Assembly (NCBI GenBank): GCA_001657395.1
Contig: LYSY01000003.1
Span: 434,001-498,000 of the forward strand
Length of the DNA stretch: 64,000 nucleotides
Source: Rhodospirillales bacterium BBD 1991-14
Lineage (GTDB): Bacteria; Pseudomonadota; Alphaproteobacteria; Kiloniellales; Kiloniellaceae
Direction: 5' to 3'
In this document: piece by piece, positions 45,966 to 54,051 of the stretch
How the letters are laid out: the number at the start of each line of letters is the position of its first letter
Numbering within the stretch: position 1 is the first letter of the stretch
Made by a program: the position numbers and the translations under genes
Notes under the pieces: model-generated
The model's database searches: none
Seen by the model: only the letters and a program-made list of their open reading frames with translations
What the model was told of the DNA's origin: nothing

Positions 45966-46009
45966 GTCTGAACCCCTTTGTCTGGATGAGACCCTGAAAA
46001 CCGGGGCGG

Positions 46010-46432
46010 CTATCCCTGCAGGCTGGGCCGGCTCGGGCGGTCCTGCATGGCATCGAGGCGGGCCACGCGCTGATAGAGCTTGTGGGAGCGCTCGAGAAGG
46101 TCCACCAGGCGCGGCTGAAGCTGCGCTCCTTCGACCGGGGGTGCGGTCTCCTCGCAGACCTCCTTGCCGGACAGGCGGTACTCTTCCGCTGCGGCCTCCT
46201 CGCGGGTCATCTCGCCCGCATGCACCGCTTTCTGAACCAGGAGCCAGGCCATAATCTGGGTCAGCCGCGCGGTCAGCCGCATGGTCTCGCAACTCATCGC
46301 CATGCGTTCGGCCGGCGACATCTTCTTGCGCTCTTCGGGCTCGCGATGGGTCAGATAATCCCGCGCTTCGCGGGTCAGCGCCAGGGCCTCGTCGAAGGTC
46401 GAATCAAAGAAGGCGACGGTCTGGTCCTTCAA
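46010..46432 (-). CDS. rcdA: DUF1465 / RcdA-like regulator of CtrA degradation
   Basis: 140 residues from a TTG preceded by GAGGAA at 6 nt; the frame is open 49 codons further but without a ribosome site or conserved sequence. The DUF1465 core FFDSTFDEALALTREARDYL and MSCETMRLTARLTQIMAWLL VQK fits RcdA, the adaptor that helps ClpXP degrade CtrA in Caulobacter. Helical bundle, cytoplasmic. Divergent from hsp20. The name is by family; activity here is inferred. Confidence 0.8.
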   Translation of the reverse strand: MKDQTVAFFDSTFDEALALTREARDYLTHREPEERKKMSPAERMAMSCETMRLTARLTQIMAWLLVQKAVHAGEMTREEAAAEEYRLSGKEVCEETAPPVEGAQLQPRLVDLLERSHKLYQRVARLDAMQDRPSRPSLQG

Positions 46433-46614
46433 GACGGCTTCCTCAAGACGGGTTCCTGGGCAGGACGGCCTGTTGCGAGCGGCCCCTTCTAGCGGGCCCG
46501 GGGTCGCTGAACGGCGAAAACCGTCCGATGCTAACCCCTTCCGGCTTAACAATCCCTTGGAAATGAACGCCGCAGACATCAGGAATTATTTCATATCCAG
46601 CAGAGACCGCAAGT

Positions 46615-46643
46615 CTTGAATCGGAACTGCCAGCTGCCAATAT
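46615..46643 (+). promoter_or_regulatory. Candidate heat-shock (RpoH) promoter of hsp20
   Basis: CTTGAA (46615-46620), 16-nt spacer, CCAATAT (46637-46643), close to the sigma-32 pattern CTTGAA-N-CCCATNT with one mismatch. Lies 122 bp before the hsp20 ATG in the 333-bp divergent gap. Confidence 0.6.
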
Positions 46644-46765
46644 CCAAGGGGCCGCAGAGGGGTGCCTTCTAAAAGGGCCCTTCAAAACAGCGGCTTATGA
46701 CGAGGGTCCGACCATCCGGTGGGCCCGTTGACCAACCATATTGCTCATGCAAGGAGAATGTGGAC

Positions 46766-47227
46766 ATGCGCAGTCTTGATCTTTCCCCTCTTTTCCGTGC
46801 CACCGTCGGTTTCGACCGTCTCGCCTCCGCGCTCGATGCCGCCAGCCGGCTGGACGACAGCGCCTACAGCTACCCGCCCTACAACATCGAGAAGACCGGC
46901 GACGACAGCTACCGGATCGTGATGGCGGTGGCCGGCTTCGGCGAAGACGAACTGGACGTCACGGCAAAAGAGAACAGCCTGACCATCACCGGCAAGAAGG
47001 CCGCCGAGGGCGAGGAGCCCAAATACCTCCACCGCGGCATCGCCGCGCGCGCCTTTGAGCGCCGCTTCGATCTCGCCGACTACATCAAGGTGAGCGGTGC
47101 CAAGCTGGAGAACGGCCTGCTGTCGGTCGACCTGGTCCGCGAGATTCCCGAGGCCAAGAAGCCCCGTTCCATCAAGATCACAGCCGGCGCCGGCAGCGCC
47201 AAGGTGATCGAGAGCGAAGCGGCCTAA
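46766..47227 (+). CDS. Small heat-shock protein, Hsp20/IbpA family
   Basis: 153 residues; ATG with AAGGAG at 9 nt. Alpha-crystallin domain at ~38-128: YPPYNIEKTGDDSYRIVMAV, AGFGEDELDVTAKENSLTIT, GIAARAFERRFDLADYIKV and ENGLLSVDLVREIPE. N-terminus MRSLDLSPLFRATVGFDRL matches IbpA-like class A proteins. ATP-independent holdase. The heat-shock-type promoter upstream fits. Confidence 0.93.
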   Translation: MRSLDLSPLFRATVGFDRLASALDAASRLDDSAYSYPPYNIEKTGDDSYRIVMAVAGFGEDELDVTAKENSLTITGKKAAEGEEPKYLHRGIAARAFERRFDLADYIKVSGAKLENGLLSVDLVREIPEAKKPRSIKITAGAGSAKVIESEAA

Positions 47228-47263
47228 CGCGGCCCCTTTCAGTCAGCGCAATACCTGTGAAAA

Positions 47264-47294
47264 GCGGCCGGGCGGCGAAACACCGCCCGGCCGC
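47264..47294. terminator. Bidirectional-type terminator hairpin after hsp20
   Basis: 12-bp perfect stem GCGGCCGGGCGG/CCGCCCGGCCGC with a 7-nt loop, 36 bp past the hsp20 stop. Plus-strand tail ACGCGTTTTG, minus-strand tail TTTT. Confidence 0.7.
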
Positions 47295-47397
47295 ACGCGT
47301 TTTGAAACGGCAAGGCGCGTTCTTGCCGCTCCCATCGGAGCTTCCCCCGCCCCGCCACTGGCCGGGACTCCGTCCGCTCTCCTAGACTGTCGGCGTC

Positions 47398-48018
47398 ATG
47401 CTTTCCGTCGACCGCCTCTCCCGCCCCGGCCTTGAGCCGGCCAGCTTCGAGCTCGGCGGCGGAACCTGCATGGCCCTGAGCGGGCCTTCCGGCGCCGGCA
47501 AGACCCTCCTGCTCCGCGCCCTGGCGGACCTGGATCCCGCCGAGGGTGAGATCCGTCTGGAGGGCAAGGCGCGCGGGCAGATGAGCGGGCCGGAATGGCG
47601 CCGCCGCGTCGGTTATCTGCCGGCGGAGCCCGGCTGGTGGTCGGAGCGCCTGGAGGAGCATTTTCTCGACTGGCCCATCGTCGCCGCCCAGCTGGGCCGC
47701 GTGAACCTCACGCCCGCCGTCGCCGAACGGCCGGTCAGCCGGCTCTCCACCGGCGAGCGCCAGCGTCTCGCGCTGCTGCGCGCCCTGGATCGTGCGCCGC
47801 GGGTGCTGCTGCTCGATGAGCCCACCGGGCCACTCGATGAAGAGGCCACCGCCGCCGTCGAAGCGCTGATGCGCGAGAAACTGGAGAACGGCCTGGCGCT
47901 GCTCTGGGTGACCCATGACCGGCGCCAGGCGGCGCGGGTGGCGACCACCCAGTTGCGGATCGAGGCCGGGCGGCTGCGCCCCCTCACCGACGACGAAATC
48001 GCCCGGCAGGCCCGATGA
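47398..48018 (+). CDS. fetA: ABC transporter ATPase, FetA-like
   Basis: 206 residues, short ABC ATPase. Walker A GPSGAGKT, signature RLSTGERQRLALLRAL, Walker B VLLLDEPTGPLD, H-loop WVTHDRRQ. The segment GYLPAEPGWWSERLEEHF is typical of FetA/YbbL. With FetB it forms an ABC system linked in E. coli to iron export and oxidative stress resistance. 27 bp before fetB. Confidence 0.85.
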   Translation: MLSVDRLSRPGLEPASFELGGGTCMALSGPSGAGKTLLLRALADLDPAEGEIRLEGKARGQMSGPEWRRRVGYLPAEPGWWSERLEEHFLDWPIVAAQLGRVNLTPAVAERPVSRLSTGERQRLALLRALDRAPRVLLLDEPTGPLDEEATAAVEALMREKLENGLALLWVTHDRRQAARVATTQLRIEAGRLRPLTDDEIARQAR

Positions 48019-48045
48019 TGGAGACTTGGTAATGGAGATCGGGCG

Positions 48046-48843
48046 ATGAACTACATCCGTCTCGATACTCTGGACCTCGCCGTCGCGGCGCTGCTGCTGC
48101 TGGCGGTGGGCGGACTGTCGCTTGCGCTGCAGCTCCGCATCGAGCGCAGCCTCGCCATCGCCGCCCTGCGCTGCGGGCTGCAGCTCTTCCTCGTCGGCCT
48201 GGTGCTCACCAAGCTCTTCGAGCTCGCCTCGCCCTGGTGGACCGCCCTGGCGGCGCTGGCCATGATCCTCTTCGCCGGACGCGAGGTCATGGCCCGGCAG
48301 GAGCGCGGCTTTGCGCGCCTCTGGGCCTACGGCATCGGCACTTCGGCGCTGCTGATGGCCTCCACCCTGGTCACCCTCTTTGCCCTGACGACACAGGTGC
48401 AGCCGGAGCCCTGGTACGACCCGCGCTATGCCCTGCCGCTGCTGGGCATGATCCTCGGCAACACCATGACCGGGATCGCCCTCGGCCTGCAGCGCCTCAC
48501 CGAGGGCGCGCGCCAGCAGCGCGCCGCCATCGAGGCGCTGCTCTGCCTCGGTGCGACCAGCCGCGCGGCCATGCTGCCCGTCACCCGCCAGGCATTGACC
48601 ACCGCCCTGATGCCGATCATCAATTCGCTGGCCGCCACCGGCCTGGTCTCCCTGCCCGGCATGATGACCGGCCAGATCCTGGCCGGGGTGGAGCCCATGC
48701 AGGCAGTGAAGTACCAGCTTCTCATCATGTTCCTGATCGCCGGCGGCACCACCCTGGGCGCCGTCGCCGCCGTCTTCACCGGCCTCTACCGCCTCACCGA
48801 CGCCCGCGCCCGCCTGCGCCTCGACCGGCTGGCGGGGGAGTAA
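48046..48843 (+). CDS. fetB: UPF0014 permease, FetB-like
   Basis: 265 residues, about seven membrane helices. Family motifs: LPLLGMILGNTMTGIALGLQ, EALLCLGATSRAAMLPVTRQ, SLPGMMTGQILAGVEPMQAV KYQ. Pairs with the preceding ATPase; the substrate (iron in E. coli) is assigned by family only. Confidence 0.88.
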   Translation: MNYIRLDTLDLAVAALLLLAVGGLSLALQLRIERSLAIAALRCGLQLFLVGLVLTKLFELASPWWTALAALAMILFAGREVMARQERGFARLWAYGIGTSALLMASTLVTLFALTTQVQPEPWYDPRYALPLLGMILGNTMTGIALGLQRLTEGARQQRAAIEALLCLGATSRAAMLPVTRQALTTALMPIINSLAATGLVSLPGMMTGQILAGVEPMQAVKYQLLIMFLIAGGTTLGAVAAVFTGLYRLTDARARLRLDRLAGE

Positions 48844-48854
48844 CAACAAATGAT

Positions 48855-48947
48855 CGTCACCCTCGGGCTTGACCCGAGGGTCCATCCCTCAGCGGCAAAG
48901 ACTTGCAAGCGGAGACATGGATGTTCGGATCAAGTCCGAGCATGACG
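48855..48947. repeat. Paired palindromic repeat (REP/BIME-like)
   Basis: Two inverted copies of a ~31-bp palindromic unit: 48855-48885 and 48917-48947. Each unit can fold by itself (CCCTCGGG-CTTGA-CCCGAGGG), and the copies also pair with each other. This CGTCAYCCTCGGRCTTGA type of unit is a common dispersed repeat in alphaproteobacterial intergenic DNA. Sits between the fetB and thioesterase 3' ends. Confidence 0.75.
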
Positions 48948-48973
48948 GTTGTGGAAGTTCCAAGGGTCCGCGT

Positions 48974-49417
48974 TCAGATCTGAAGCTTTGCCAGCGCGGC
49001 GCGCAGTCCATCGGGGATCGGCACGGCCTTCATGGTCGCGCGCTCGACGAAGACATGGACGAAGCTGCCGGTGGCCGCTGCTTCCTCACTGTCTGCCTGG
49101 AACAAACCGATCTCGTAGCGCACCGCGCGGTTGCCCAGGTGGCCGACGCGCAGGCCCGCCTCGACGTCCTCCGGAAAGGCGAAGGCGGCCTTGTACTGAC
49201 AGGCGCTCTCGGCGCAGACGCCGATCACCCCGCCGTCGTGGATGTCGAGCCCGCCTTCGCGGATCAGGTATTCGTTGATGACCGTGTCGAAGTAGGAGTA
49301 GTAGACCACGTTGTTCACGTGGCCGTAGATGTCGTTGTCCATCCAGCGCGTCGGGATGGTGAGGAAGTGTAAATAATTGTTTCTACTTATATTTTTTTGT
49401 TGGGCATCTGTGGGCAT
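48974..49417 (-). CDS. Acyl-CoA thioesterase with replaced N-terminus
   Basis: 147 residues, 4-hydroxybenzoyl-CoA thioesterase-like hot-dog fold; the motif [20 protein letters not shown] carries the catalytic D27. Residues ~17-33 lie in a 50-bp direct repeat, and residues 1-16 ([16 protein letters not shown]) come from the AT-richer insertion next to it. A GAGG ribosome site lies 8 nt before the ATG. So the gene was interrupted and re-formed with a new start and leader; its former 5' end is at 50891-50979. Probably still functional, but under new expression signals. Confidence 0.85.
49320..49369. repeat. Left direct repeat (att-like) of inserted segment
   Basis: 50 bp in the thioesterase 5' coding region, matching 50891-50940 at 47 of 50 positions; the first 30 bp are identical. 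Typical of attL/attR produced by integration into a conserved coding sequence. Confidence 0.85.
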
Positions 49418-50890
49418 ACAAGAACCTCGATTTAGGCAATGGGGTGCATCTGGGGTGCGGACTGCGAACGCACAGAGCGCGTTTTAGATTGCCTAGCCTC
49501 AATCTGTGGCGCTTGATTCAGCAATCTCATAGTGTTTTCAACGCCCACAATTCCAAAGACCTATCAACTTGAGCGCAATTGGTACAAGTACGGGTATGCA
49601 AAGGGCGTGACCGGATACTTTCAATCGAACAAAAGTAAGTAAACGAAAAGCCAAACGTAAGAGATCGGCGCAAGTCTCTTCGGCTCTGGGATGAGGATGA
49701 GAACCCTTGGAGTTTTTGACCGCTTTCGACCCTCTTTTGACAGCGGGTGCAAGCCTTGTAGCAATTCTTGGTGCTGTTTTTGCAGTTTACCGATGGGGGC
49801 GGGGAGCCCTTGGCAAAGTCCTGCATCGAGTTACTAGGTTCAAGCCAACTGTTCCACGAGAAACGCTGCGCGCTGTTCCCTCATCAGATTTCTGGTGGCA
49901 CATGGGCTCCCGCAATGGCCAACCTGCAATGCAGATCGTGACCCGCTGGTACCTTACGAACATAGCTGACCGCCCAATCATCGTTGCAAGCACAAGGCTG
50001 ACACGAGGATGGTTTCGGAGTGAGCACAATGGCCATGTGTTGATGGGAGGCCCGCTTTCACCTGGAGCTACTCGTGAGATCGACCTAGATTTTTGGGTGA
50101 GTCCGGCGTTTCGTAAGAAGGGCGAGAGCTTCACTGCCCGCCTAACACTTGTTGATCAACTGGGCAATGAGCATAGGACGCAGAAAATCATGATCCCCTC
50201 AGATTGGCGGCCAAAGCGCGAAATCCCCAAACCAGTTGAGGAGTCAGTTCACGGAATTGCTGATCCACTTGTGAAGAAGGTGGTCGCGATTCTGAAGGAT
50301 GAAGTTATCCGCTACCGAGAGTGCGGTCGAAGCGCAGGTGGGCTCGGTAGTGTCCAAGTTACTTACAAGGGCCGAACCCTGAATGGAATTGGAAACCAAT
50401 GGAGGGAATCTAACTCACCTCGAAGGCAGTGGATCGTTCCTGATCCAGAATCGGCAAACATGCATTCAGATAATCTTGCAGCAGTTATGTCTTTGTTCGC
50501 CAAGGCGGATGATCCTGGCAAGGAAATCATCATCAATGCTCTCATTGAGCGCATAAAATCAGGCAGCGAATACAGTTGTATTGGCTACTTCTTCATGTTC
50601 TCGCTGTTCAGGATGGGGCGGTTGTCTGAAGCCCTTCGGACTTTGAAAGAGAGACTGGTTGACGATGACAAGTACGGTTTTGGCGACGCTGTGAGGCTGC
50701 TATCTGGATTGCTTCAGTACGAGCATCCAAGATTCGACGATGCCGCTTTGGACGAGGTCGAACGTTTTGCAGATGGGCTTGAAGGTCATCTCTTCGATCT
50801 GAAGGAGAAGAGCATCGCCGCTCGAGCGGCAAAGCACGTAGGCAACTGATCCTTGAACGAAGCATCTTCCCAGCAATGGCCGTCCAGCAA
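49350..50890. mobile_element. Inserted AT-richer segment between att-like repeats
   Basis: About 1.5 kb bounded by the 50-bp direct repeats in a thioesterase gene. GC content and codon use are visibly lower than in flanking genes. It carries one credible gene (49707-50849) and the substitute 5' end of the thioesterase. The 289 bp from 49418 to 49706 contain an 8-bp inverted repeat (TAGGCAAT near 49434 / ATTGCCTA near 49488) and no credible ORF. No integrase, transposase or relaxase is present, so it is a remnant, or was mobilised in trans. Confidence 0.75.
49707..50849 (+). CDS. Unknown membrane-anchored protein, insertion cargo
   Basis: 380 residues from a TTG; the start is uncertain. One N-terminal transmembrane helix (TAGASLVAILGAVFAVYRW). 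Residues ~60-165 look beta-rich, like an immunoglobulin-type sandwich (MQIVTRWYLTNIADRPIIVA, GATREIDLDFWVSP, FTARLTLVDQLGNEH). The rest is mainly helical with an alpha-repeat character (IGYFFMFSLFRMGRLSEALR). No family recognised and no catalytic motif seen. Codon use is AT-richer than neighbours, pointing to transfer. It may be an accessory or defence-type cargo; that is speculation. Confidence 0.7.
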   Translation: MEFLTAFDPLLTAGASLVAILGAVFAVYRWGRGALGKVLHRVTRFKPTVPRETLRAVPSSDFWWHMGSRNGQPAMQIVTRWYLTNIADRPIIVASTRLTRGWFRSEHNGHVLMGGPLSPGATREIDLDFWVSPAFRKKGESFTARLTLVDQLGNEHRTQKIMIPSDWRPKREIPKPVEESVHGIADPLVKKVVAILKDEVIRYRECGRSAGGLGSVQVTYKGRTLNGIGNQWRESNSPRRQWIVPDPESANMHSDNLAAVMSLFAKADDPGKEIIINALIERIKSGSEYSCIGYFFMFSLFRMGRLSEALRTLKERLVDDDKYGFGDAVRLLSGLLQYEHPRFDDAALDEVERFADGLEGHLFDLKEKSIAARAAKHVGN

Positions 50891-50897
50891 TGGCCGT
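50870..50897. repeat. 14-bp tandem duplication at right junction
   Basis: CCAGCAATGGCCGT occurs twice in a row (50870-50883, 50884-50897), overlapping the start of the right att-like repeat. May be a scar of integration or imprecise excision. Confidence 0.6.
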
Positions 50898-50979
50898 AGA
50901 TGTCGTTGTCCATCCAGCGCATCGGGATGGGCAGGAAGTGCGAGTAGTCCGCGCGGGTATCTAGAGCTGCCAGGGCCAT
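50891..50979 (-). pseudogene. Orphaned 5' end of the thioesterase gene
   Basis: ATG at 50979 opens MALAALDTRADYSHFLPIPM and continues [10 protein letters not shown], homologous to residues ~11-33 of the intact thioesterase at 48974-49417, then leaves homology at the junction (…GHCWTAIAG). This is the ancestral start of the gene, separated from its body by the insertion. 50891-50940 is the right direct repeat. Confidence 0.8.
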
Positions 50980-51022
50980 ACTAACTCTGGGTTCTCAGGG
51001 AGCATGGCAGCCGCTCAAGGTT

Positions 51023-51676
51023 CTATCCCAAAGACCTTTCATACTGCTGTTTTACAAATTCGAGCAGACTGGAGTAGCCGCTATCGAGGTTGCGCTCAAT
51101 GCTTTCCGAAACCACGTTGTCGCGAACTTTGCGCAGAGTTTGTTGAACACTTGTATTGTCGTAGTTCCAGCTTGGGTTCTTTAAAACAACGGAATAGGCC
51201 TCTATCTGGCTAGACGGCAGTAGTAGCTTATCGAGAGCATTCTGGCCCTCGGGGTATATAGGAAACCCAATAACCTGTCCTTTAATTGAAAGTGAGTTCA
51301 GACGAGCCTTTAATGGCCTTATCTTTTCGAGATATGGGTCCATCAGTTTCGCGCTATCGGTCCCATGCTCCTGGACGTGCTTTTTCAACCCTGCGAACTC
51401 GTGGGTATTGCCCTTTCGGCTTTCCTCTTCGGAGTGTACTCGAACTCCAATCTCCGAAGCCTTAAGGGCAGCCACTAATGGACTCATTGCATCGCGATAC
51501 TCGTAGGCAACGTCAGTTAGCTCATCCAAGAACTTCGTCTTTATCTTAGTCTTCTCCTGATGTCTCCACGACCTCAGCCCATAAAAAGCGACGCCAGCCA
51601 AGACAGCGGTGGAGACTCCTGCAACAAGAGTTCCAATCTCCGATAGCCAAGTAATCGCGCAGCCCCATTCAATCAT
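51023..51676 (-). CDS. Unknown membrane-anchored helical protein, AT-richer
   Basis: 217 residues. N-terminal transmembrane helix (WLSEIGTLVAGVSTAVLAGV), then RSWRHQEKTKIKTKFLDELT and a helical cytoplasmic domain. No family recognised. The ATG lies 2 bp after the stop of the alpha/beta-hydrolase gene, so it is translated in that transcript. Codon use is AT-richer than the surrounding genome, suggesting acquisition. It lies just outside the att-like repeats, so it is either a second insertion or part of a larger event. Confidence 0.7.
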   Translation of the reverse strand: MIEWGCAITWLSEIGTLVAGVSTAVLAGVAFYGLRSWRHQEKTKIKTKFLDELTDVAYEYRDAMSPLVAALKASEIGVRVHSEEESRKGNTHEFAGLKKHVQEHGTDSAKLMDPYLEKIRPLKARLNSLSIKGQVIGFPIYPEGQNALDKLLLPSSQIEAYSVVLKNPSWNYDNTSVQQTLRKVRDNVVSESIERNLDSGYSSLLEFVKQQYERSLG

Positions 51677-51678
51677 CG

Positions 51679-52467
51679 TCAGAGAATCGTCCTAAGGGCA
51701 TCCAGGCTTTCGTCGGGCTTCTCGGCCAGCATCATATGGCCGCAGGCGGGGATGGTGACCTGGCGGGCGCCGTCAACCGCGGCGGCCAGCTTGGTGCCGG
51801 CGCGCGCCGGGGTCATCTTGTCGTGCGTCCCCATGATCATCAGCAGCGGACAGGCCACCTTCGCCGCCGCCTCCAAGGCGCCCTGATAGGCATTGCAGGC
51901 CGAAAGGTCGGCATGCAGGACGCCGGGCCTCACACGCTGCAGCAGGCGCTCGCCGCCGCCCATCATCCAGGCGCCGGGCAGGCGCGCACCGCCGTAATGG
52001 CCGCTCGGCCCGAAGCCCCAGGAGGTCATCAGCTCGAAAGCGAGGGGGTCGTCGGCCTCCGCCGCCGCCAGCAGGTCCGGGTGCACCGGCATCTTCGGCG
52101 CCGCGCCCATCAGCGCCGCGGCGCGCACCCGGCCCCCATGGCGCCCGGCACAATCGAGCGCGACCAGCGCCCCCATGGAGTGGCCGACGAGCGCCGCCGC
52201 CTCCAGCGCAGCCTCGTCCAGCAGCCGCACGACCCAGTCGGCCATGGCCTCGATCGACGTGAGGGGCGCGCCCTCCGAGCGGCCGTGGCCCGGCAGGTCG
52301 ACGGCCAGCACGCTGCGGTCGCGGTGCGCGAAGTAGCGCGCGGGCAGCGCCCAGACCGTGTGATCGAGACCGGCGCCGTGCAGAAACACGATCACCGGCA
52401 GATCGGGGTCGAAGCTGCGCCCGCCGGTCGCGGCATAGACCCGCGCGCCGTCCACTGAAAGATCCAT
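51679..52467 (-). CDS. Alpha/beta-fold hydrolase
   Basis: 262 residues. Oxyanion region VIVFLHGAGLDHTVWALPAR, nucleophile S97 in AALVGHSMGALVALD, acid near MIMGTHDKMTPARAG and histidine in PACGHMMLAEKPDESLDALR. Esterase or thioester-hydrolase type; substrate unknown. The C-terminus ends at ALRTIL close to the boundary with AT-richer DNA, so the last residues may have changed. Originally probably followed by the thioesterase gene. Confidence 0.88.
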   Translation of the reverse strand: MDLSVDGARVYAATGGRSFDPDLPVIVFLHGAGLDHTVWALPARYFAHRDRSVLAVDLPGHGRSEGAPLTSIEAMADWVVRLLDEAALEAAALVGHSMGALVALDCAGRHGGRVRAAALMGAAPKMPVHPDLLAAAEADDPLAFELMTSWGFGPSGHYGGARLPGAWMMGGGERLLQRVRPGVLHADLSACNAYQGALEAAAKVACPLLMIMGTHDKMTPARAGTKLAAAVDGARQVTIPACGHMMLAEKPDESLDALRTIL

Positions 52468-52534
52468 TCCGGTTAATCCATCCTCTGGGGGTTTTGGCGA
52501 TGCGGTTTGCGGCGGCGGCGGCCGGTTGCCGATC

Positions 52535-53830
52535 TCAGTCTTTTTGCGAGACCCGCAGCGCCTGGCGCAGGTCGGCGATGATGTCGTCCGGGTCCTCCAG
52601 GCCGACGGAAAGGCGCACCATGTCCTCGCCGACGCCGGCCGCGGCCAGCTGCTCCACGCTCATCTGCTGGTGGGTGGTGCTGGCCGGGTGGATCACCAGG
52701 GTCTTGGCGTCGCCCACGTTGGCGAGGTGGGAGGAGAGCTGGCAGGCCTCGATGAACTTCGCGCCCGCCTGACGGCCACCCTTCACGCCGAAGGAAACGA
52801 TGGAGCCGCAGCCGCGGGGCATCAGCTTCTGGCCCAGGGCGTGGTCGGGATGGTCCGGCAGGTCCGGGTGGATGACCCAGGAGACGGCGTCCTCGCGCTG
52901 CAGCGCTTCCAGGACCTTGTGGGTGTTGGCCATGTGGCGCTCCATACGCAGGGGCAGCGTCTCCACGCCCTGAAGAATGTAAAAGGCGTTCTGCGGGCTC
53001 ATCGCCGCGCCGAAGTCGCGCAGTCCCTCCGCCCGCGCCCGCATGGCAAAGGCCTGGGGGCCGAACTCCTCGGCGAAGTCAATGCCGTGGTAGCCCGCGT
53101 AGGGCTCGGTCAGGGTGTCGAACCTGCCGCTGGCCTCCCAATCGAAACGACCGCCGTCGACCAGCAGCCCGCCAAGGGCCAGGCCGTGGCCGCCCAGCCA
53201 CTTGGTGGCGGAATGCATGACCAGATCGGCGCCCAGCTCGACGGGGCGGCAGAGATAGGGCGTGGCGAAGGTGCTGTCGATCATCAGCGGCAGGCCGGCG
53301 TCGTGCGCCACCTCGGCCACTGCCGGGATGTCCAGCACCTCCAGGCCCGGATTGCCCAGGCCCTCGGCGAAGACCAGCCGGGTTTCCGGACGGATGGCAT
53401 CGCGGAAGGCGGCGACGTCGCGCGGGTTGACGAAGCTGGTGGTGATGCCGAAGCGCGGCAGGGTGTGGGTGAAGAGGTTGATGGAGCCGCCGTAGAGCGA
53501 GGCCGAGGCGACGATATGCCCGCCCTGGCCCATCAGGGTGGCGACCGCCAGATGCAGCGCGGCGTGGCCGGAGGCGGTGGCGATGGCGGCCACCCCCAGT
53601 TCCAGCGCGGCCACGCGTTCCTCCAGCACCGCAACGGTGGGGTTGGAGATGCGGCTGTAGATGTGGCCGGCGCGCTCCAGATTGAACAGCGCCGCCGCCT
53701 GGTCGGTGTCCCTGAAAACGTAGGAGGTGGTCTGGTAGATCGGCACCGCCCGCGCGCCGGTCACCGGGTCGGGCTGCTGGCCGGCGTGCAGGGAGAGGGT
53801 GTCGAACTTGAGGAACTTTGGATCTGCCAC
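52535..53830 (-). CDS. metY: O-acetylhomoserine sulfhydrylase-type Cys/Met enzyme
   Basis: 431 residues from a GTG with GGAG at 9 nt. PLP enzyme of the Cys/Met metabolism family; the length and FDTLSLHAGQQPDPVTGARA, VPIYQTTSYVF and LEGLGNPGLEVLDIP-type segments point to O-acetylhomoserine sulfhydrylase (MetY). Schiff-base lysine K210 in HSATKWLGGHG. Makes homocysteine from O-acetylhomoserine and sulphide. Preceded by a structured leader. Confidence 0.92.
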   Translation of the reverse strand: MADPKFLKFDTLSLHAGQQPDPVTGARAVPIYQTTSYVFRDTDQAAALFNLERAGHIYSRISNPTVAVLEERVAALELGVAAIATASGHAALHLAVATLMGQGGHIVASASLYGGSINLFTHTLPRFGITTSFVNPRDVAAFRDAIRPETRLVFAEGLGNPGLEVLDIPAVAEVAHDAGLPLMIDSTFATPYLCRPVELGADLVMHSATKWLGGHGLALGGLLVDGGRFDWEASGRFDTLTEPYAGYHGIDFAEEFGPQAFAMRARAEGLRDFGAAMSPQNAFYILQGVETLPLRMERHMANTHKVLEALQREDAVSWVIHPDLPDHPDHALGQKLMPRGCGSIVSFGVKGGRQAGAKFIEACQLSSHLANVGDAKTLVIHPASTTHQQMSVEQLAAAGVGEDMVRLSVGLEDPDDIIADLRQALRVSQKD

Positions 53831-53948
53831 GGTGAGGGACTCCGGTTGTGCGCCCGCAACCTTATACCAAGCCGCGGCGATCCGGACCCCCTCTTGAGCC
53901 GCATGGGAACCGCATGAAGAACCGCGCGCGGGTGCAAAAGAACAGACA

Positions 53949-53978
53949 CGCGAGGCACCATCCATACGATGGTTCGCG
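53949..53978 (-). other. Hairpin in metY leader
   Basis: CGCGA and TCGCG arms enclose a perfect 6-bp ACCATC/GATGGT stem with a 3-nt bulge, 119-148 bp upstream of the metY GTG. No known SAM or SAH riboswitch consensus was recognised. Confidence 0.4.
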
Positions 53979-54051
53979 CGCCTTTCTCCGCAAGCAGCGG
54001 AGCGGCTTCATCTAGAGCGCTGGAAGTAAAAAAGCAGGGCCCGAAATTGAA

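Follow-up and report, generated by a model that had tools for sequence, protein, structure and literature searches.

A 4HBT thioesterase gene has taken in foreign DNA and now carries a replacement 5' end in an intact reading frame; its older start lies orphaned on the far side of the insert. The gene (48974..49417, minus strand), whose neighbours are common to relatives, lies in the window analysed here: a whole stretch of 64,000 nucleotides, positions 434001-498000 of one contig in a source genome of 5.5 Mb and 21 contigs. On balance, the insert is probably what remains of an element that integrated site-specifically and has lost its recombinase, with a second foreign gene added in a separate event.

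The insert is bounded by two copies of a 50-nt direct repeat (49320..49369 and 50891..50940, both unstranded). These agree at 47 of 50 positions (94%) with a spacing of 1571 nt, 30 nt being exact; an earlier note on this DNA had claimed a repeat 1.57 kb away, with 47/50 identities and 30 bp identical, and recomputation returned the same values. The 30-nt stretch is the longest exact direct repeat both in the region 48001-52500 and in the whole window; in 200 first-order Markov resamples of that region, the longest repeat averaged 11.9 and never exceeded 16. The left copy, which resembles an attachment site, is continuous with the intact thioesterase gene; in the right copy, the match to the left ends exactly at the start of the element DNA. 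No tRNA genes were found in the window, and no RNA families at gathering thresholds in 46000-54000.

The repeat is itself a highly conserved coding stretch of the thioesterase gene. The initial 98 nt of this gene in its intact form (the left copy together with its 16 codons) matched the thioesterases of all 38 relatives compared, at 80-100% identity over 35-60 nt; over the 50-nt core part, identity reaches 50/50 in congener G005 and 49/50 in G001 and G002. Judged from these alignments, a similar repeat could arise from any two thioesterase genes of the genus, picked at random. For a repeat of this kind, identity between the copies alone neither proves an attachment site nor dates the event, and the surrounding arrangement therefore carries the weight.

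Comparison with relatives identifies the interrupted state as derived from an insertion. The thioesterase gene was matched at the DNA level in 52 of 98 genomes (the source genome included), and wider stretches were taken from 38 of the 51 others. In five of seven congeners (G001, G002, G004, G005, and G006), the thioesterase follows an alpha/beta hydrolase, its native upstream neighbour (51679..52467, minus strand, in the window), across a gap of 21-33 bp, measured, like all gaps here, as the distance between tblastn match ends. There is no insert in these five, so the window carries an insertion, in agreement with the claim of the earlier note that the gene had been invaded. In the closest relative, G001, the gene is uninterrupted, and the hydrolase is 98% identical in amino acids and 94% in nucleotides. 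Two other congeners have other DNA in the gap (G003, 1344 bp; G007, 561 bp), in neither case with a core repeat. Among the 38 relatives' loci, 33 have the hydrolase in view (24 with a gap of at most 64 bp, nine with a larger one) and five do not. The gap in G007 is filled by a 176-aa frame without a Pfam family (L039, 7910-8440), of 55% GC in a locus of 68% GC, and this is another insert at the hydrolase-thioesterase junction.

The replacement start is more than filler. The intact 147-aa frame (48974-49417, minus strand) matches PF13279 (2.5e-15) and PF03061 (2e-12), and AATCGAGGTTCTTGTATG stands at its start. Codons 1-16 (49370..49417, minus strand; GC 0.292) lie within the insert. Alignment of the residues that precede RWMDND in 34 of the 38 relatives, the four lacking a match to the anchor pattern having been dropped, identified three invariant positions: Arg at -12, Tyr or Phe at -9, and Thr at -1, each in 34/34. 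The window's replacement end has all three (Arg -12, Tyr -9, and Thr -1), the Arg and the Tyr falling within the 16 foreign codons. Over the aligned 48 nt, this end has 31% GC compared with 42-73% in the 34 relatives, and the shift is abrupt at the core edge, where codons of 29% GC give way to host-like codons within the core. Thus, the 16 codons are apparently a genuine thioesterase N-terminus from a lower-GC source. Retention of the invariant residues at 31% GC, together with an orphan that lacks the Thr, argues that the incoming DNA carried its own thioesterase 5' end. From these comparisons we conclude that DNA carrying a lower-GC thioesterase start became fused at the core with the resident gene, whose own start was displaced. 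The earlier note had described 16 foreign codons with their own ribosome site; the in-frame 5' replacement stands, whereas the codons are a real thioesterase N-terminus and not foreign filler. A simple scan for promoters over 49300-51100 returned no sigma-70-like site.

The older 5' end (50891..50979, minus strand) reads MALAALDTRADYSHFLPIPMRW. It retains the Arg and the Tyr, and the T of PTRW is now M: Met replaces the Thr that is invariant in 34/34 relatives, as a fragment free to drift might show. Its best match is the sister genome G001 (97.8 bits, 92% over 66 nt), whose lead over G002 and G033 is 1 bit only, so the orphan looks local in origin by a thin margin. The native start was thus rightly placed past the right repeat; a second foreign gene lies between it and its hydrolase neighbour. 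That the two copies are old tandem paralogues is unlikely, since they run into different starts and a gene follows just one of them. Matches to the orphan on plasmids (seven records, of which four were fetched) were all set aside: three of the four have near full-length thioesterase matches, and a fragment-like match on a Burkholderia plasmid of 19.7 kb (NZ_CP066767.1; L186, 9666-10065), where no gene is annotated, resolved by tblastn into three adjoining thioesterase pieces.

The DNA between the copies (49370..50890, unstranded) has a GC content of 0.506 compared with 0.666 for the window, and is thus AT-richer, as had been claimed. It encodes one cargo protein of 380 aa (49707..50849, plus strand), with an N-terminal hydrophobic stretch and a GC3 of 0.521, compared with 0.893 for the thioesterase gene. 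Searches placed this protein in no family: nothing above the Pfam cut-off, nothing in PADLOC, and PHROGs matches at E 0.12 or worse. Weak partial matches occur in G008 (E 8.9e-4) and G199 (E 3.3e-4); the structural model is poor (pLDDT 40).

No recombinase, phage, or transfer family was found in 12 of the 13 frames of at least 50 aa inside 49370-51676 (all but a 50-aa frame at 49884-50036), which upholds the reported absence of a recombinase for the frames scanned. Elsewhere in the source genome, PF00589 has seven matches, six of them over the cut-off and every one on other contigs; the serine recombinase family PF00239 has no match in that genome.

The following course of events would account for these features. 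A small element, presumably as a circular intermediate, would have integrated near the conserved 5' end of the thioesterase gene through a site-specific crossover, with its core within the 30 identical bases. By analogy with known elements, we infer that a tyrosine recombinase may have been the agent. The attachment region of the element would have brought the substitute start (upstream region, ribosome site, and 16 codons), from which the gene would now be expressed; the target reading frame would thereby stay intact, and the old start would be orphaned on the far side. The recombinase gene may since have been lost, or may have acted in trans. What is left would be one cargo gene between two attachment-like copies, much like a cis-mobilizable remnant. 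The 217-aa foreign gene between the orphan and the hydrolase would have been placed there in a separate, probably earlier, event. A GC switch at the core edge, beside a host-like core, is what is expected where the core alone had to match the host.

Homology-driven capture is a real rival, possible but on present evidence doubtful, given that conserved coding sequence makes up the repeat. Here, foreign DNA with the thioesterase 5' end of a lower-GC relative would have crossed over with the resident copy at the best-conserved motif of the gene, without a site-specific recombinase: through RecA; through single crossover of a circle; or through homology-facilitated illegitimate recombination with a microhomology join on the right. 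A 14-bp tandem, CCAGCAATGGCCGT twice (50870..50897, plus strand), lies at the right junction, overlaps the core edge, and has ACGGCCA in common with it, which would suit such a join. However, a donor gene of low GC would not be expected to agree with the host over 30 consecutive bases, and the change from codons of 29% GC to host-like ones falls at the core edge. Moreover, 30-50 bp of homology is short for RecA recombination. That no recombinase was found beside the insert, and that G003 and G007 hold other DNA in the gap without the core repeat, would accord with capture. A route of this type, with successive insertions that leave orphan remnants, has been proposed for Vibrio T6SS loci, in the excerpted text of PMC5361080.

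The foreign DNA continues past the right copy. The earlier note had set the limit at 50940; in fact it extends to 51677, with a GC content of 0.49 over 51000-51676. This part holds a second cargo gene (51023..51676, minus strand), which encodes a 217-aa protein, predicted helical, and begins 2 nt past the hydrolase stop. It occupies, between orphan and hydrolase, the spot held by the thioesterase in most relatives. No protein family matched the product, apart from one weak PHROG hit (4.1e-6) with no function assigned; its model is a helical bundle (pLDDT 83) that matched nothing in BFVD or PDB at E 0.001. No plasmid was found to carry both cargo proteins, 380 aa and 217 aa, and among viral contigs none was confirmed to do so.

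The 217-aa gene is rare. It is present in two of 61 genomes of the order (the source genome and G028, a Kiloniellaceae MAG), in one of 385 in the class sample (the source genome alone), and, with a two-sequence profile, in three of 398 in the phylum sample (the source genome, G471, and G593). In a named genome collection, 127 stretches matched a pattern and two encode a relative: the Kiloniellaceae MAG OFTM267 and a Novosphingobium MAG (31%). The only close relative found is that of G028, at 45% identity and at the same locus; there, the gene flanks the thioesterase on the opposite side, with a decayed thioesterase 3' fragment (76% over 103 nt) about 140 bp away. When each thioesterase was searched against its own locus, 39 loci in all, clear nucleotide-level fragments occurred, among the matches listed, in the window (3.9e-17) and G028 (6.3e-15) only, the next best of those listed being 1.1e-4. 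Translated matches, down to 3e-12 in many loci, were dismissed as GC-rich noise in short, scattered frames. The two loci with a thioesterase fragment are thus the two loci with the 217-aa gene. The stretches of the Novosphingobium MAG, G471, and G593 that bear 217-aa relatives gave no thioesterase match. In G028 (L055, 5874-7419), a glutathione S-transferase gene and the decayed fragment separate the intact thioesterase from the 217-aa gene; this transferase is in none of 37 other fetched loci.

A further reading is improbable. In it, the hydrolase-thioesterase junction is an insertion-prone spot that gathers accessory genes by assorted events, the thioesterase repeat being one accident among them, and the 217-aa gene and the thioesterase fragments derive from an older rearrangement of the region common to the Kiloniellaceae MAG. 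In its favour, three of the eight genomes of the genus (the source genome, G003, and G007) do have DNA at this position, and clear fragments are restricted, among the 39 loci, to the two 217-aa-gene genomes of the 61. Against it, the fragments differ (a 5' end in the window, a 3' end in G028), the side of the thioesterase on which the 217-aa gene is found is not the same in the two loci, and this gene is absent from all seven congeners. Very improbable is the idea that the motif WMDNDIYGH is a landing pad in the order for recombinase-less single-gene cassettes that enter with a piece of thioesterase, which would explain why the 217-aa gene lies beside thioesterase fragments in two families, and which is testable because a second genome has the same rare gene beside such a fragment at the same locus.

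Repeated use of the site was not seen, which counts against the favoured reading, an integrated element without its recombinase. The suggestion of an under-described integration site was not borne out in this respect: among 385 genomes searched, 49 bear the core, and one of these, the source genome, has two; a second core, allowing up to one mismatch, is in none of the other 48. Viral contigs with a thioesterase core (seven loci) were rejected as attachment sites: tblastn with eight window proteins matched none of the seven at E 1e-3, and in the two whose genes were examined (L075 and L081) the core match lies inside a protein whose relatives in three phage records are annotated as capsid or major head proteins. 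These capsid-type proteins (L075, 2656-3783; L081, 3603-4760) nearly match the thioesterase motif, with matching codons, in what looks like coincidence. The PMC literature searched yielded no report of YbgC as an attachment site for prophages, and the available portion of PMC12884075 does not mention thioesterase.

A short direct repeat, TGGGGTGC-ATC-TGGGGTGC (49440..49458, plus strand), 70 bp from the core and with an 11-bp period, is a weak candidate for an arm-type recombinase site. In the order, the exact pattern occurs in the window only (one of 59 genomes). In viral stretch L118, compared with L089, the same pattern lies about 50 bp, by eye, from the visible att boundary, beside a PF00589 integrase (4.4e-19); in L123, it lies about 40 bp, also by eye, from what we take to be a dusA 5' core near the contig end. 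Of the viral stretches with the motif, 5/40 have a tyrosine recombinase at most 2 kb away from it, compared with 4/28 for a reversed-pattern control. At most 20 domains, all from this order, went into the recombinase profile, so distant types may escape it; Pfam PF00589 was found in three of ten frames tested, the same three that the profile had found. A contig end is 350 bp or less from the motif in 10/40 stretches and in 1/28 of the control (at 400 bp or less, 10 and 3, counted by hand), and six of those ten belong to one phage family. Twenty integrase neighbourhoods from the order all lack the pattern, even with up to three mismatches allowed. In the excerpt of PMC9658991, TGGGGTGC is part of a tRNA-Pro att sequence. 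An 8-bp repeat of similar period is present in 218 of 1274 overlapping windows of this size. Given a control that is no different and integrase neighbourhoods without the pattern, the arm-type repeat gets little weight.

Several known systems share the architecture of this locus. A complete conjugative element, SXT encodes an integrase of its own; unlike SXT, the window insert has neither conjugation genes nor an integrase. As described in the excerpted texts, dusA-specific islands and prophages (Farrugia et al. 2015, PMC4482086; IMEVchUSA3, PMC8409611) enter the 5' end of the gene at a 21-bp conserved core, orphan the original 5' end, and supply a new 5' end with a promoter; SXT likewise supplies its target prfC with a 5' end of its own (PMC8409611). 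So far as those excerpts go, the window insert has the same architecture as the dusA islands, IMEVchUSA3 in dusA, and SXT in prfC. It differs from the dusA islands in its target, a 4HBT thioesterase; in its size, 1.57 kb; in the absence of an integrase; and in a site that is not recurrent in the genomes searched. Set beside dusA/prfC-type events, the locus has an uninterrupted target in relatives, imperfect direct repeats derived from the target (here, a conserved coding motif), and, judging by the intact frame with its invariant R and aromatic residue, what appears to be a new 5' end that restores the gene; no recombinase of its own lies beside the att-like site in the 12 frames scanned of 13, and use of the site by other elements was not seen, since the one genome with two cores among 49 core-bearing ones is the source genome itself.

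CIMEs, in the part of PMC5704250 available, are elements without integration or transfer genes that keep attL- and attR-like ends and may adjoin accreted DNA. The window insert has repeat ends and, in the frames scanned, no recombination or transfer family, and by this analogy it might be a CIME-like remnant. No related intact element that would show descent from an ICE or IME, and a loss of genes, was found for this thioesterase site. At Vibrio T6SS loci, according to the excerpt of PMC5361080, new DNA is added at a conserved anchor and the older fragment is pushed outward. The window shares both the anchored addition and the displaced fragment; unlike those loci, it has both junctions in the same 50 nt, and both copies run into thioesterase 5' ends. 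By anatomy alone, it differs from an integron gene cassette in that its ends are thioesterase coding sequence.

As a target of a type of event already known, the thioesterase gene is new: a metabolic gene joins the protein-coding genes that are given a substitute start by inserted DNA. The two conserved residues kept in the low-GC replacement suggest selection on such starts.

The downstream flank offers two minor observations. An ABC transporter gene and a UPF0014 gene lie between HSP20 and the thioesterase in the window and in the six congeners other than G001, where the corresponding stretch (L033, 7899-8716) has no UPF0014 match and only a distant ABC match occurs elsewhere. Just downstream of the UPF0014 gene in the window (48855-48960), a palindrome-like sequence spotted by eye, CCTCGGGCTTGACCCGAGGGTCC, is possibly a dispersed repeat.
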